The position numbers and the translations under genes are program-made. A DNA stretch of 64,000 nucleotides from Adineta ricciae (Eukaryota; Rotifera; Eurotatoria; Adinetida; Adinetidae): NCBI GenBank assembly GCA_905250025.1, contig CAJNOJ010000028.1, positions 124,001 through 188,000 on the forward strand, given 5' to 3'. Below, piece by piece: positions 26,932 to 52,372 of this stretch (position 1 is the first letter of the stretch; each line of letters opens with the position of its first letter). Below the pieces are notes generated by a model. It saw nothing but the letters and a program-made list of their open reading frames with translations, did no database searches and was not told where the DNA came from.

Positions 26932-28684
26932 ATGTCCGGACGGAGTAAAACAACAGACCGGGAGAAGAACGAAAAAATCCGTCAGTTACGCGAAGTCATG
27001 GGTGTCAGTGAACAACAAGCACGTCAAGCGCTTCAATCCAACGATTGGGTTGTCGAACGTGCCATCGGTGCATTTTGTGAGGACACATCGTATTCTTCGA
27101 GAGGTGGCGGTTCCCATCATTCACCTTACCACACTCAGACATCTTCGTCCTCATCATCATCGACAAAATTTGATCGTAAAAAGATTGATCAGCTATGGGC
27201 TAATTATACAGACTCACGTGATCCGACCAAGATGAATTTAGACCAACTATTACGTTTTATAAAAGATTTACAATTCGAACCAAGTGATAGAGAAATTCTT
27301 ATTCTGTGTTGGAAAATGAGTGCTTCAAAGCAAGGAGAATTACAACGAACTGAATTTACTAATGGCTGTCAAGAGTTACAATGTGATACACTAGACAAAC
27401 TGCGCGATAGAATTAAACAACTCAATGAAGATATCGAAAGTGATAACGAAAAATTCAAGCAATTGTATGGTTACACATTCAATTTCGCACGTTCATCGAC
27501 GTCGATGAAAAATCTGGACGTACAACCAGGTATGATCATCAGTTCGACCATGAGATTGAGTGAAAGAAGTGCTGAATGTAAAGTCTGTTCGATTTGGAGA
27601 ATCTTAATTATTACTTTTCATTTCCTCTTTTTTTTTCATGCTCAAAAAATGCGCGTGTTGTGAAAATTTCTTTCATTACCATGCTCGTCCAAACATATAA
27701 TATCTCATGAGGGAATAAGATGAGTTTTAAGCACGTTTAGCACATGAATATTCCGTGTATGACAATTGTTTCTTGACGAATGCATCGACATTTGTCAGAG
27801 GGGTTTTCTTTCCCTATGATTTAATTACCAATCAAAGTAGAAAAACATGCACATTCTCAGGCAATTTCACTCCTACTCATTCACTGATTCTCAAAACTGA
27901 ATCTCAAGTAAATACGTATCAAATTTGATACTCATCGAACGAACGAAAAAGAAACTCATAGATATGGATAATCAGTGTTAGTTAGTACTCACTGCGAACA
28001 AGCATATTTTAATGAGAATTCTAATAACAATTATTACACTTCTATGGTTGAGTGTATCAAGTTCTCGAGAAAAAAAATGTGATCTGCTATCGTTCAGTGT
28101 AAATTGTTACCATAATTATCCCGGTTTTTCAAGATGTTTCCGTCTAATATTCCTGATTTTGATAGTCAACACTAAAAATCTAATTATTCTGTTTCATCAC
28201 AGATTCCTACCCACATTGGAGCTTGTTTAACCTTCGTCTTTATCATCTTGTAAAAGAGCACTTTTGTAGTTTACGTGATCAAAGTCGTTTCGCGCTTCAA
28301 ACTTTTTTAATAAATGATGTCCTGTAGGTTATTAGTACACTAATTCTTTTAGCAATGGCCTACTGGAAGATGTTATTTATTGCGAACAACAAACCGTTAC
28401 AGAGATTCAAACTTCTTGACTTATGGCTGAAATTTCTCGAAGAACGTTCGAATCAACGCTCGATCACTAAAGATACATGGGATTTATTACTTGACTTTTC
28501 CACAACAATCAAATCCGATTTTTCGAATTATGATCACGATGGTGCTTGGCCAACGTACGTCTTTTGAACGATCTCTTTCAACACACGAGTATAATTCGAT
28601 CGGTTTTTTTCTTTTAGGTTAATCGATGATTTTGTTGAATATGCTAAAACAGCCCAAGCTCAGTCATCTTCTTTCAATGTTTAA
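26932..28684 (+). CDS. DCUN1D: DCN1-like protein (cullin neddylation E3)
   Basis: DCN1-like proteins promote NEDD8 transfer to cullins. Exons 26932-27529, 28353-28554 and 28618-28684 join in phase to 288 residues. The N terminus is a UBA-like domain (KIRQLREVMGVSEQQARQAL, NDWVVERAIGAF), followed by a Ser-rich linker. The PONY/DCUN1 domain follows: IDQLWANYTD, LEFEPSDREILILCWK-like sequence, EFTNGCQEL, AMAYWKML, KLLDLWLKFLEE, TKDTWDLLLDFS and the hallmark DHDGAWPTLIDDFVEY (family EGAWPVLIDDFVE). The first intron is 823 bp, long for this window, and shows no exon. Confidence 0.93.
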
Positions 28685-29488: not shown

Positions 29489-29934
29489 CTAGATATTCTC
29501 GAGTCGTTGGTAAAATTCATCAGGTGCTATGGAGTTATCACCATTGACATCGAAGAAATCAAACAGTTGTCTATCCTGCGCGTCGATATATTTGCTGGAC
29601 AGAGAGCGGCCAAAACGTGGTCGACCGATGATTGCGTAATATTCATGGACCTTGATGATACAACAAATGAAATAGAATAACTGCGAAACAAGACGAAAAA
29701 CGTGTCAACATACGAGCTGTAAATAACGTTTGAGTTCTTCGCGAGAATGAAACCGTTCAGGTCGATTTGGTGGAGCTATGGGATATAAACAGACATAGAT
29801 TTCGATTGTGACAATGAATAGTTTTACTTACGAGGAACATCTGTATAAGCCGATATTACTTGCGCTATTTGGATGGCAATCACAGTAAAGATAATCCATG
29901 ATACACGAGTGGTATTGCTGCTGGTGAATAGCAT
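29489..29934 (-). CDS. NPF: Neuropeptide F precursor with EF-hand-like C-terminal tail
   Basis: Three exons (29832-29934, 29714-29775, 29489-29650) join in phase to 108 residues. A signal peptide (core VSWIIFTVIAIQIAQVISA) probably ends at residue 29. The mature region begins AYTDVPPPP and carries RPERF, the amphipathic helix EELKRYLQLVHEYYAII and ends RPRFGR at residues 65-70. Pro-rich start, P..RP..F, EL..YL and YY.I..RPRF-amide are the invertebrate NPF/NPY signature; Gly69 would give the amide and Arg70 the cleavage site. The remaining 38 residues contain LFDFFDVNGDNSIAPDEF, which fits an EF-hand helix-loop (D1, N3, D5, S7, E12 at residues 89-100). That tail is unknown to me in NPF precursors. 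The intron near the C terminus lies between residues 55 and 56, not inside the RPRF Arg codon. Confidence 0.85.
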
Positions 29935-31025
29935 AGTGTTGTGTAGAAAAACAAGTTGTTGTTGGTTCTTTCTGAATTAAATAGATGCAGTTTAAATTTT
30001 TAAGGAAGTCTAATATTTGTTTCTTAATGTAGAGAACTGACAGAGAATGAGCTTTTATGCGAAAACTTTCTTATATATAACAGTGAAAAAGAGAGAGAAA
30101 AAGAAGAGACATAGAGAACGTAAAGAGAAAGCTAGCAGGAGGAGCTATTAAATTTATGACATCTATATATATATATAAAGAGAAAAAGAAAATAATAATT
30201 TGTCAGGCATGTGTAAGTTATCTGTTGTTAAGCAGTATCAAATTCTTTTTTTTTGTTCCTACGCTTAATTAATCACAACGCTTGACGTAGTCGAACGATT
30301 GCGATGATTCGAAGACAAGAAAAAAAAACGAATAGATGTTTAATTAAACGATATGGGTGGCAAAATTTGTTATAAATATCATCCGAAAACGGACTGCCTG
30401 CAAGAACTAATTACACATACAAAAACACTCCCATGTTCTCGCTCTTCTCAAAACGGTGGATATGAACGAGTAAATATTTTTGCACAAATCTATGCTTCGT
30501 TCGTTCATTTGACGCTGCAAATAAAGGAAACAGCAATCCGTTTTGTTAATTAATCTTTCACTAAGTAAACTAATTTGTAGAGTAACGAAACATACTAACA
30601 TGAGTGTAAAAATCACGATATATTTTAAATCTTCTTTAGTATGCATGACATTTCTGCTAATGAGCAAGCAGTCAGATCTGTAACAATTATCTACTTTCCG
30701 TGCTGACATTCTAACGATGAATATTCACTCATGCTCATGTTGACCGTTCTTATCACCTGAGTGCTATTTAACATTTTGAGATGGTTTTCATAGAGCGGAA
30801 AGAAACATTTTATCCTGCTACTAAGGATGTAGTTTTATCAAGGAAGGTTGCGCATATCTATGTCGTGAATTTACACTGAGATAACAAAGATAAAAGAAAT
30901 TAATGCTTACTACTTTTAATCGCTGTTTTGTGTAATTCGGTTTCCAAGGGTACATGTTTGTCCAGAATCAGACAAAAAAAACAAAGCTAATTGCAAAACA
31001 TAAATTGGAAGTTTTTCAGATAAAA
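29935..31025. other. Intergenic, divergent promoters of NPF and malic enzyme
   Basis: About 1.1 kb. It has a TATA-like TTATATATAA at 30071-30080 suited to NPF, a TA microsatellite near 30163-30178, and AG-rich tracts. No coding exon recognised. Confidence 0.55.
31018..31019 (+). promoter_or_regulatory. Candidate trans-splice acceptor at malic enzyme
   Basis: GTTTTTCAG ends six bases before the ATG at 31026, with no upstream coding exon. Confidence 0.45.
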
Positions 31026-34001
<2,976 letters not shown>

Positions 34002-46545: not shown

Positions 46546-47838
46546 TGTTGTTTCACTAAGGAAATGACATGAAACTTCTAATCTAACCCAATCTAGTGGG
46601 TTCAGTTTGTATTGACTGGTAGGAGACGCAACCAATCAGATGATGACATTCTTGGAATGTCGCTGAAATCTAATCGGAATTTTCACAATGATATTTCATA
46701 CCAGTGAAAGAAAGTACGCGAGTAATCCACTAGAATAATCATATAAACTTATTGAGAAATTTCACATTGATGAATTTGTTTATGATGGTAATTTGCGTTA
46801 CTTGAAAATATTCTTCGTGCTCTGATAGGAATCAATTGATATGAAAACAACAAACATAGCAAGACAGTTTGTTTTATTCGAACAAATTGTTATTTATTTT
46901 CATGAAAACAAATAATCATTGCCGAAAGATGCTCAAGGCTGTCATTGTGTTGATGTTTTGTGTCGAGAAATGCGAAAACGAACTATATTATTGAGAAAAT
47001 AAACCTTGAATTCTATAGTTGTTTGATTTGCTATTTCAATTGAATTCTTATCAGAACACAAATGAACTAACTTGAAAGTTCATACGATTGAAACTCTCTT
47101 ATCTGAACAAGATGAATCGTAGAACAGACAGAAATGTCAGATGTTGATTGGACTCTCCTGTAGTGTTGAGCAATATACATAGAGAGATCAACGGTTCCAT
47201 CAATATTGATAAGAACAAAAGATGATTTCCAAAAGATTTTCGAAGTGAATTAGTACTTCTTTATACACATAGCACATGAATGTGGTACGTGACTAGTAGT
47301 GAGAGGATACTCAGTTTGCCATGGATGAGTGCTCTATTGTCCATGAAAAGGTATTGATGAGAAAAGCAATTTTCATTGTGCGGATGTCGTTAGGTGCATA
47401 TCTTCTTTTTTGTCTCTGCTTGCACTCTTCGTCCTTATACTATGAAATAAACAGTAACTGCGGTTTCATAAATTAAAGGAATGTTTATCGTCTCTTCTCT
47501 GTGATACCGTGCGTTAGAGTATAATCAAAACCAAAGATCATACCAAGACATAAGACAGTTGTATCTCAATAAGCTATGAAACCTCAAGGATTTTTTGAAA
47601 CAATAGGCCAAGAATATATTTGACAGGGAGACTTGTGCGAAATTGTTTTTTGTTTTAAGAGAACAATGACTGAAACCGCTGGACAAAAAATTAACAAAAG
47701 AGATAAATATTTAATGCGGTTGAATGGTTCTAATGAAACTGTTTGGTATAAAAGCCAGTGTAGTTTAATGGTGTTTTCATACAACCGATTACAATAATCA
47801 CTCATCATTATCTATATTACTTGCTGAATTAGTAAAAA
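46546..47838. other. Intergenic, divergent promoters
   Basis: About 1.3 kb. No coding exon or repeat recognised; it holds the TATA box of the next gene. Confidence 0.6.
47747..47754 (+). promoter_or_regulatory. TATA box of EF-hand gene 1
   Basis: TATAAAAG in GGTATAAAAGCC, 85-92 bp upstream of the ATG. It suggests a strong, regulated promoter, as expected for an abundant structural protein. Confidence 0.55.
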
Positions 47839-49491
47839 ATGGCCGCTGATGCTTTATTCAACCAAGCCGATGTTAACCACGATCAAGTCGTCGATAGAAA
47901 TGAATTTCGAAACTTTATCGGTGGTAACGCTGCGGGCGGTGTTGCTGGTGCTGAATTCGGCGCATACGGAGCTGGCGCTGGATATGGCTCATCATCATAT
48001 CAATCATCATCTTACGAATCATCATCCGCAAATGGTGGAGCTCTAGGTGGTGAACTTGCCTACGGTGCAGCTGGTGCTTCATTTGGTGGTGCTTCCTTAG
48101 GCGGTGCTGGCTATGGTTCATCATATGAATCGTCATCATACAACTCATCAGTTGGTAATGGCGGAGCTGCCTATGGAGTAGACAGTTCTAACTATTCATC
48201 ATCAGAAACAACTGCTGTTCAACGTTATGAAACCGATGCTCAAGGTCTCTTCAAAGACTCCAACCCCCAAATTATTCGTCGTCCAGCACCAGGTGGTGTT
48301 CAAACCTATACCCAAAATATCCGAGTCCGATTTCTTCAACCCCCACCAATTCCACCACCAGGCGTATGTTTTATCTTTTCATAGCAATTATCCACAGTCT
48401 ATATCGCTTCTTTTTCATTCTAGCCACTCATCATCAAAGAAGTGCGACCACCTCAACCACCTCCACCACCACCCCTCCGCATTCGTCAACAAGCTCCTCC
48501 CCTTCCTACACCACCTCCACTCATCCTCCGTGAACGACCACCAGTACCACCAGCGTCCGTCGCCTCTCAAACTGGTAAGAACATACTATTAACGCTTATC
48601 TATTCCACATTCTTCAATACTGTGTACTCTTCTAGTTGTCCGACGATTGGCTGCCCTCCCCGTCCCACCACGATCGGTGATCATCGAACGTTTACCAGCA
48701 CAACCTGCTCGACCACGTTCGTTTCTAGCTTTTCTTGCATATGTATGAACCAATGAATTGTATTTTGTTTCTAGGCGATATCATCATCGAACGTTGGGTT
48801 CCATATGGAGCACAAGCTAAACGTCGAACCATTGTTCAACGTGCAGCTGCAGCTCAACAATATGCTCGCCCACGTAATGTTATCATTCAATACGAAGCAC
48901 CCCAAGTACGTGTTGTCCGACAATTCCAACGTCTTGGTGTTACCCCAGAAAACCCACAAGCCTACGTTCAACGTTATGGTGCATCTCTTTTGGATGCTCA
49001 AACTTTGGTACAACAAGCACGTGCTGCTGGTGTTGTTGAAGACATTGTAAGTCTATTTACTTTCTATTAGAAATGAATACATTTCTCATTTTTCTATCTT
49101 TTATATCTAGAGTGCACCAGCTGTCCGTGGAGCAGTAGCAGCCGGCTTTGAAAGTGGAGTAGTTGGCGGTGGTTCATCCTTCGAATCATCATCCTATTCA
49201 GCAACAGGCTCAGGCACAGGCTTTGATGCTGGTTTAGGTGGTTCATCATCATACGAATCATCATCATTCGCAGCAAGTAGCGAAGGTGCTGGACTCGGTG
49301 CTGGTGCAGGATTCGGTGTCAGTGCTGTTGATGGCGGTTTCGGCAGCTCTAGCTCATACGAAGCCTCCTCATCATACAGTGCATCCACTGGAGGTGCCTT
49401 CGGTAGCTCCAATGATGCCGCATTCAACGCCGCTGACACAAACCACGATGGTGTTTTATCACGTGGTGAATTTCACAATGCTGGTTATTAA
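47839..49491 (+). CDS. EF-hand-bracketed Gly/Ser/Pro-rich structural protein 1
   Basis: Five exons (47839-48363, 48424-48574, 48636-48716, 48775-49046, 49111-49491) join in phase to 469 residues. A single EF-hand-like loop sits at each end: DVNHDQVVDRNEF near residue 12 and DTNHDGVLSRGEF near residue 455. Next to each is a Gly/Ser/Tyr-rich stretch with repeated SSSYESSS. The centre has a Pro-rich segment and a basic region with PPRSVIIERLPA, RDIIIERWVPY, RRTIVQR, RNVIIQYE and a conserved RQFQRLGVTPENPQAYVQRY block. I cannot name the central domain; the IIERW/IIQYE strands recall filament-forming repeats of cortical skeletons. A Ca-responsive role in the intracellular skin lamina of rotifers is inference. 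The facing gene is its paralogue. Confidence 0.82.
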
Positions 49492-50237: not shown

Positions 50238-52372
50238 TTACCTATTTTGAAATTGTGCGCTAAGAAATTGACGGAATTCATTGGGATCGAGTGTACCATC
50301 TTTATTTAAATCTGCTTCATTAAAGGCAATAGTTGCTGGATCATTATCACCTAGAGTAACACCACCAGTAGCAGAACTGTAACTTTCATATCCAGATGCA
50401 CTAGCACCAACAAAATCTGCTCCGGGCGATTGCATACGAGCACCTTGGGAGGCAAATGACGTTCTTTCAAAGGATGCTGTTGCTCCATAACCATTTCCAC
50501 CAATTGTACTACCTTGTGTTGCATCGAAAGCTGAGAAGCTAGCATTTCTGTGTTGACTACCACTGCGACTACGATTCAATGAGTGAGCAGGTGATGCTGC
50601 TGTACCAATATCACCGGTTGCTGAGAAATCAACACCAGCAGTTCCATAATCAATACCTTCACCTGAAAATTCAGCACCACTAGCTGAAAAATCGGCACTA
50701 CCATTCGAGTGTTCGACACCAGCAGTTAGATCAACACCACCACTTGTAAGGTCAGCAGTACCACTGGCAAGATCAATGCCGCTGGTTGCTCCAACAGCAG
50801 AACTGGCACTGTTATATTCAGCATTAAGTGATGTTGAACTTCCTGTAAGACTAGGACCGGTTTTTGGTGGAGACTAATAAATAATTAAAAGAGGAAAAGA
50901 AAAGCGAAACAAATTTCTATCTGAATGATATAGAACAAGATTCGTCAGCCTTACAATATCTTCAACAACACCAGCAGCACGTGCTTGTTGCACCAAAGTT
51001 TGAGCTTCTAGAAGTGATGAACCATAACGTTGAACATAGGCTTGTGGGTTTTCTTGAGTAACACCAAGACGTTGGAATTGTCGGACAACACGTACTTGTA
51101 CTGGTTCATATTGAATGATGATATTGCGTGGTTTGGGGTATTCTTTTGGTGCTTCGGCTCGTTGAACGATCGTTTTTCGTTTGGCTGACGATGTGTATGG
51201 TACCCAACGTTCGATGATAATATCACCTAATTGCAATTATTCACCTTTCCGTTATAATATGCGAAACAAAATAAAACGAAATGACTTACGCGGTTTCGGT
51301 GGCAATGCTGGTAGGCGTTCGATGATTACTGATCGAGGTGGAACAGGAATGGCAGGTAAGCGACGAACGACTAGCGAGAAAATTTTGTAAAAAACATAGT
51401 TCGAAATAGGTTTCCCTCTCTCATTTGTTTTTACCAGTTTGAGCGCCCATGTTCGTTGGTGGCGCTGGAGGTTTTTCACGTAGGATAAGTGGAGGTGGTT
51501 GTGGAGGAGGTGGAGCTTGTTGACGAACTCGGAGGGGTGGTGGTGGTGGTGGTTGAGGTGGTCGCACTTCTTTAATGATGAGTGGCTAAAAGTTGTTAGA
51601 TACAAACAAAAACATATTGTTTACATTTTCGATAAAAGAAAAAGATTTTACGCCAGGTGGTGCGATCGGTGGTGGTTGGAGAAATCGAATTTTCACATTT
51701 TGAGTGTATGTGACAGGTCCACCTTGTGCTGGTCGTCGAATGATTTGTGGATTAGGATCTTGGTACAGATTTTGTCCGTTAGCACCATTGATTTGTAGTT
51801 GATTTTGCGAGCCAGTCGTTTCGAAGGTTGACGCCGAAGCACCAGCTGTTTCGCCTGAGTAACCTACAGCAGATGCTGAGCTTGTTTCAAGACCGCCGGC
51901 TGCGTAGCTAGTCGATGAACTAGCATCGTACCCACCAACACCGCCTGATGTGTTGACATCGAAGCCATTCACATCAATGCCAGATGTTGGTGTGAAAGAT
52001 GCTCTTTCATACGAACTATAGCTTGCTTCGCAACCGACATTACCTGCTTCATTCAGGCTAGCTCCTCCTATGGCAGCAGAGCTACCGAAACTTCCACTGG
52101 CAGCATTGTTTTCACCATAAGCAGCATGTGAAGATGTTTCATATGAACTTGACGAGTATTGATTTGCTCCAGTCGCGCTGCCAGCGAAATTATTTGCTGA
52201 TCCTGCTCCCAAACTTTGAGCAATAAGATTACGAAATTCGTTGAAATCAAGACGTTGATCTTTATTCAGATCTGTTCGTAAAAGAGAAAGAAAAATAAGA
52301 TCATATTAGACGTACGTAGTTATATGAAAACAAAGCATCACTACCAGCTTGGTTAAACACGGCGTCAACCAT
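50238..52372 (-). CDS. EF-hand-bracketed Gly/Ser/Pro-rich structural protein 2
   Basis: Six exons (52345-52372, 51652-52271, 51435-51585, 51290-51370, 50955-51226, 50238-50873) join in phase to 595 residues. The three central exons are 151, 81 and 272 nt, identical in length and phase to those of gene 1, which proves shared descent. It has an N-terminal EF-hand loop (DLNKDQRLDFNEF), split by the first intron, and a C-terminal one (DLNKDGTLDPNEF). Low-complexity Ser/Gly/Ala/Tyr stretches flank the Pro-rich and IIERW core. The last exon contains an imperfect repeat around SG-(I/V)-DL-(A/T)-SG. The N-terminal Met exon is 28 nt. Function as for gene 1, inferred. Confidence 0.82.
50580..50873 (-). 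repeat. Protein-coding degenerate repeat in EF-hand gene 2
   Basis: Roughly 8-12-residue units of the type SGIDLASG, SGGVDLTAG, SGAEFSGEG, TAGVDFSATG. Each carries one acidic residue beside a hydrophobic one. It has no counterpart in gene 1. Confidence 0.6.

Follow-up and report, generated by a model that had tools for sequence, protein, structure and literature searches.

Precursors of the NPY/NPF family (PF00159) have in common a signal peptide, a peptide of the form PPxRPxxF..EL..YL...YY.I..RPRF-amide and a C-terminal flanking peptide, and we know of no settled answer as to what the flanking peptides of NPY and NPF do. A gene of the bdelloid rotifer Adineta ricciae raises this question in a particular form, for its flanking tail bears an EF-hand-type loop: is the loop a genuine and inherited part of the precursor, and what might it contribute? 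We analysed this gene in a stretch of 64,000 nt (the window; contig CAJNOJ010000028.1, positions 124,001 to 188,000) and compared it with the NPF-related loci of the same genome.

Rotifera were called unexplored in 2018, in the portion of PMC5818035 available, and one study including three Rotaria species (PMC6425005) identified very few precursors, according to a passage of PMC8557429; the accessible portion of that study mentions no rotifer NPF. Among titles and abstract openings in the open literature, we found nothing that describes an NPF precursor bearing an EF-hand, or a bdelloid NPF gene built like this one.

Structure of the gene and its precursor

The gene occupies positions 29489–29934 on the minus strand, a span that runs exactly from ATG to stop, and its three in-frame exons encode a precursor of 108 residues with a putative signal peptide, an NPF-type peptide ending in RPRFGR and a 38-residue tail. 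Its features are:

29832–29934, minus strand: exon 1, encoding the putative signal peptide and YTDVP, with a GT donor in phase 1 (same phase in 5/5 family loci)
29848–29934, minus strand: putative signal peptide, about residues 1–29, by inspection
29714–29775, minus strand: exon 2, 62 nt, PPPNRPERFHSREELKRYLQL; it opens on a split codon and encodes the front portion of the NPF peptide
29489–29650, minus strand: exon 3, VHEYYAIIGRPRFGR, with the tail and the stop codon
29606–29623, minus strand: RPRFGR, the RFamide end with amidation Gly and an R-x-x-R type site of putative cleavage; retained at loci C392 and C16, whereas C1 and C13 have lost it
29492–29605, minus strand: C-terminal tail, 38 residues, SLSSKYIDAQDRQLFDFFDVNGDNSIAPDEFYQRLENI
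29552–29578, minus strand: predicted helix before the loop, residues 80–88 (AlphaFold, low confidence)
29516–29551, minus strand: EF-hand-type loop DVNGDNSIAPDE, precursor residues 89–100; PS00018 match; scanned by itself, the tail gives 23.6 bits with EF-hand_6 (cut-off 25)
29498–29524, minus strand: predicted helix after the loop, residues 98–106 (AlphaFold, low confidence)

The precursor thus reads, in order, as an N-terminus that is hydrophobic by inspection, PPPPNRPERFHSREELKRYLQLVHEYYAIIGRPRF, GR and the tail SLSSKYIDAQDRQLFDFFDVNGDNSIAPDEFYQRLENI. Exon boundaries were chosen by eye and the frame was checked by script, giving introns of 56 nt (GTAAGT..TAG, phase 1) and 63 nt (GTATGT..AAG, phase 0). 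Intron phases 1 and 0 and a 62-nt second exon recur in all five loci of the gene's family, which supports the three-exon model and, together with the frame check, bears out the claim of an earlier note that the three exons join in phase. The same note had recognized an NPF-type peptide ending in RPRFGR, and the Pfam model Hormone_3 agrees, scoring 51.6 bits on the whole precursor against a cut-off of 28.7; RPRFGR supplies the C-terminal RxRF/Y, the amidation Gly and the basic cleavage site.

The gene differs from the NPF family in its introns, with one of phase 1 before the peptide, one of phase 0 in mid-peptide and none in the Arg codon, and in the EF-hand-type loop of its tail. The phase 0 intron interrupts the peptide between YLQL and VHEYY and leaves the Arg codon whole, so that the earlier remark on an intron outside the usual Arg-codon site was correct. 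As far as the available text of PMC2953531 goes, the Arg-codon intron is present in vertebrate NPY and in 10 of 11 planarian npy genes, and is typical but not defining. Three canonical NPF loci of the A. ricciae genome (C31, C214 and C67) likewise encode an NPF-type peptide, theirs ending in ARPRFGKR, but unlike the window gene all three have the Arg codon split, and the 133 codons read behind it contain no PS00018 match in any of them. A Pfam scan covering the tail stretches of two of the three, C31 and C67, returned nothing.

The EF-hand-type loop of the tail

The loop DVNGDNSIAPDE has D1, N3, D5, S7 and E12, as the earlier note had described, and also I8, with an F directly after it. It therefore presents acidic or polar ligands at positions 1, 3, 5 and 12 of a 12-residue loop and a hydrophobic residue at position 8, and it matches the EF-hand pattern PS00018. 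When the tail was shuffled, 179 of 200,000 permutations matched PS00018 (about 1 in 1,100), and the tail of C1 gave 134 of 200,000. In a six-frame reading of the window the pattern occurs at five of 62,889 sites, the NPF tail being one of them and the others lying in four reading frames at 47.8–52.3 kb; these four are probably real EF-hands, since Pfam EF-hand models match three of the four frames at E up to 0.01.

The Pfam model EF-hand_6 scored 22.8 bits on the whole precursor and 23.6 on the tail alone, both below the cut-off of 25. In its ligands at 1, 3, 5, 7 and 12, its hydrophobic position 8 and the hydrophobic positions on its flanks, the loop resembles a single EF-hand motif (PS00018; EF-hand_1/5/6). 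Unlike the usual EF-hand, it lies in a neuropeptide tail, stays under the Pfam cut-offs and is unpaired, with one PS00018 match in 108 residues; EF-hands usually come in pairs, but pairing is not strictly defining. Compared with solved structures, the tail comes closest to obelin and further EF-hand proteins (E 0.0006 for the whole sequence, 0.82 for the best single stretch), which implies no orthology. On the motif by itself, the case for an EF-type loop is good, if not overwhelming.

Modelling the tail was a check proposed in the earlier note. AlphaFold, given just the 53 residues of exon 3 and no alignment, placed helices at residues 25–33 and 43–51 of the exon, on both sides of the loop, but the model is poor (mean pLDDT 49.8); it is compatible with a helix-loop-helix and is not evidence for one.

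As a possible neighbouring source for capture of the exon, we considered the other EF-hand-type motifs in the window at 47.8–52.3 kb. A genome search with the exon 3 protein returned four matches, all to the gene's own family, and no donor was therefore identified. A further weak match of the C1 exon, at C2:265540 (E 0.07), is by eye another protein.

The four frames with the EF-hand pattern occupy 47836–49488 (plus strand) and 50241–52305 (minus strand), where 50241–50873 passes the Pfam cut-offs; they probably belong to a convergent pair of low-complexity genes with a high content of G, S, Y and A.

Relatives of the gene within one genome

Our comparison covers one genome, the window's own, in which we found eleven NPF-related loci (C67, C214, C31, C28, which is the window locus, C392, C16, C1, C13, C80, C163 and C110). 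The window locus, C392, C16, C1 and C13 form the three-exon family, with equal intron phases and a 62-nt exon 2. C80:303827, C163:166531 and C110:277321 are NPF-like, with the front half of the peptide and no RPRFG end; by eye they look single-exon, and no EF-hand was found by Pfam at E up to 1 in the two of the three that were scanned. A tree built on 37 columns is weakly supported.

C392 and C16 are near-alleles, about 91–92% identical in DNA, and both share neighbouring DNA with the window locus, a relation as expected where a degenerate tetraploid carries duplicates of long standing. Degenerate tetraploidy is described for all bdelloids examined in the excerpted text of PMC7943196. One glutamate receptor of this genome, the one tried out of 67 matches, also points to a bdelloid: it resembles AvGluR1, a receptor of Adineta vaga, much more closely (1.7e-77) than the next best solved receptor (2.7e-29). 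C1 and C13 share only the gene itself in the short stretches compared, so it is by their sequence and intron structure that we class them as duplicates of each other; in such short stretches we saw no synteny between this pair and the window locus either.

Genome searches turned up no close duplicate of the window gene. Unlike C392 and C16, the window locus has no near-identical partner in the assembly, and may be collapsed or homozygous there. A gene that is malic-enzyme-like by eye adjoins the NPF gene at about 31000–33000 of the window (plus strand), with matches in the same place near C16 and C392, and frames at 28328–28684 (plus strand) resemble by eye the end of a DCN1-like protein.

Within the family, the PS00018 loop is intact at two of five loci (window and C1) and broken at three (C392, C16 and C13). 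The window gene combines RPRFGR with an intact loop. C392 and C16 keep RPRFGR, and their loops carry G for D5 and Q for E12, with S for N3 and K for I8 in addition in C16. C1:609536 ends in RWRVRR, having lost the amidation Gly, and has an intact loop, DINHDHIITKSE; C13:428950 ends in RWRSRR, also without the amidation Gly, and its loop is broken at residues 3, 5 and 12. Both retain the gene structure. Pfam EF-hand models match the tails of the window gene and C1, below the curated cut-offs, and have no match at E up to 10 on those of C392, C16 and C13. The earlier note had held that rotifer orthologues without the acidic loop residues would speak against its reading; the relatives compared, which are all paralogues within this genome, count against it in part, for the residues are kept in C1 and lost in C392, C16 and C13.

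The peptide of the window gene differs little in protein from that of C392 (dN 0.04, dS 1.18; dN/dS 0.04), and the tails of the two give dN 0.48 and dS 1.47. Since C392 and C16 keep the peptide and have lost loop residues, the tail is, as judged from these comparisons, dispensable for the conserved NPF peptide.

Between the window gene and C1, synonymous differences in the EF stretch are saturated (15.5 over 16 sites), and the two are identical at 11 of the 16 EF-template positions versus 1 of 15 others (Fisher p 0.0005); ligand positions 1, 3, 5 and 12 are all kept. A stricter set of positions, chosen after seeing the alignment, gave 10/10 identical versus 2/21. This concentration of identity on template positions, despite saturated synonymous sites, suggests that the EF motif is ancestral and selected.

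All ten pairs were tested, with p-values that treat positions as independent and pairs that share sequences. C392–C1 (p 0.008) and C16–C1 (p 0.02) point in the same direction as window–C1, and the window gene and C392 share 9 of 15 template positions, loop positions 5 and 12 not among them (p 0.01; strict set, p 0.07). The window–C16 pair (p 0.11) and the four pairs with C13 (p 0.26 to 0.76) remain above 0.05. C392 and C16 differ at four of the 30 residues compared, and all four belong to the template, against constraint; constraint on the loop thus seems gone in these two copies. Of the earlier reading, then, the EF-hand-like segment stands as real and, from C1, looks ancestral and selected, but the conserved peptide does not need the tail, as C392 and C16 indicate.

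Candidate roles of the tail

The gene structure, the peptide, the EF-type motif, the conservation of template positions in C1 and the decay in C392, C16 and C13 can be read from the sequence itself. The account that we find the most likely, and put forward tentatively, is that the window gene is a working NPF-type neuropeptide precursor of the rotifer whose flanking peptide is a single EF-hand-like helix-loop-helix derived from the common ancestor of the three-exon subfamily. Within Golgi and secretory granules, where the lumen is rich in calcium, the tail would bind calcium weakly and fold; the folded tail would pair with a second copy, so that the precursor gathers and enters granules, and cleavage after RFGR would release amidated NPF and the tail. 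Its role would be auxiliary, because both gene pairs are split in this respect, with the loop kept on one side and lost on the other.

Regulated cargo aggregates in the trans-Golgi in response to low pH and high calcium, as stated in the available part of PMC8807871. The window precursor may be set, by architecture and with no claim of sequence relation, beside nucleobindin-2/nesfatin. Nucleobindin-2 is a much larger protein than an NPF precursor. From the portion of PMC9004410 available, nucleobindin is likewise a secreted peptide precursor with EF-hand motifs and can bind calcium, but has, unlike the window precursor, a leucine zipper.

Chance resemblance, in which an acidic and weakly constrained tail happens to fit the EF pattern, would suit a short motif that scores below the Pfam cut-off, is absent from three of five family loci and shows no template excess at p 0.05 in six of ten pairwise comparisons. 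We nevertheless consider it quite improbable, given that only about 1 in 1,100 shuffled tails matches, that the identities with C1 fall on template positions and that neither PS00018, in three stretches, nor Pfam, in the two scanned, matches the tails of this genome's canonical NPF genes. The tail might instead be a helix-turn-helix spacer, an EF-hand lookalike that binds no calcium and offers hydrophobic faces for precursor folding or sorting; the C392 tail, with its shared template positions and altered loop positions 5 and 12, is like a non-binding EF-hand relic, but the window gene and C1 have all four ligand positions in common despite saturation at synonymous sites, which makes such a spacer a rather unlikely explanation.

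The reciprocal decay of C1, which lost the hormone end, and of C392 and C16, which lost the loop, shows that hormone and tail are separable, and the tail may be a separable product; separability speaks for one of two things, an auxiliary role or an independent product. Retention of the EF loop in C1 after loss of the amidated RPRF end lends some weight to the idea that the tail is secreted as a second product, with an EF-hand fold, which is released alongside NPF and acts by itself extracellularly or within the granule. Hormone and tail have decayed separately and in opposite ways, and RFGR, RVRR and RSRR all resemble cleavage sites able to free the tail. We still hold this to be unlikely: with the loop lost in C13, C392 and C16, those copies can do without such a product, and C1 is itself much diverged (peptide dN 0.37 versus the window gene). 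It is likewise rather unlikely that a bdelloid NPF precursor gained a calcium-binding EF-hand and that, after duplication, C1 lost the hormone end and kept the EF-hand under selection, becoming a gene for a secreted EF-hand peptide, with the window gene making both.

Whether the tail acts as in our tentative proposal of an auxiliary, calcium-binding flanking peptide or as a product of its own, one genome holds natural pairs: one hormone occurs both with an intact EF-type tail and with a broken one, and a tail of this type also persists beside a broken hormone. With these pairs one can test directly whether the flanking peptide is an aid to sorting that calcium drives or a product in its own right.
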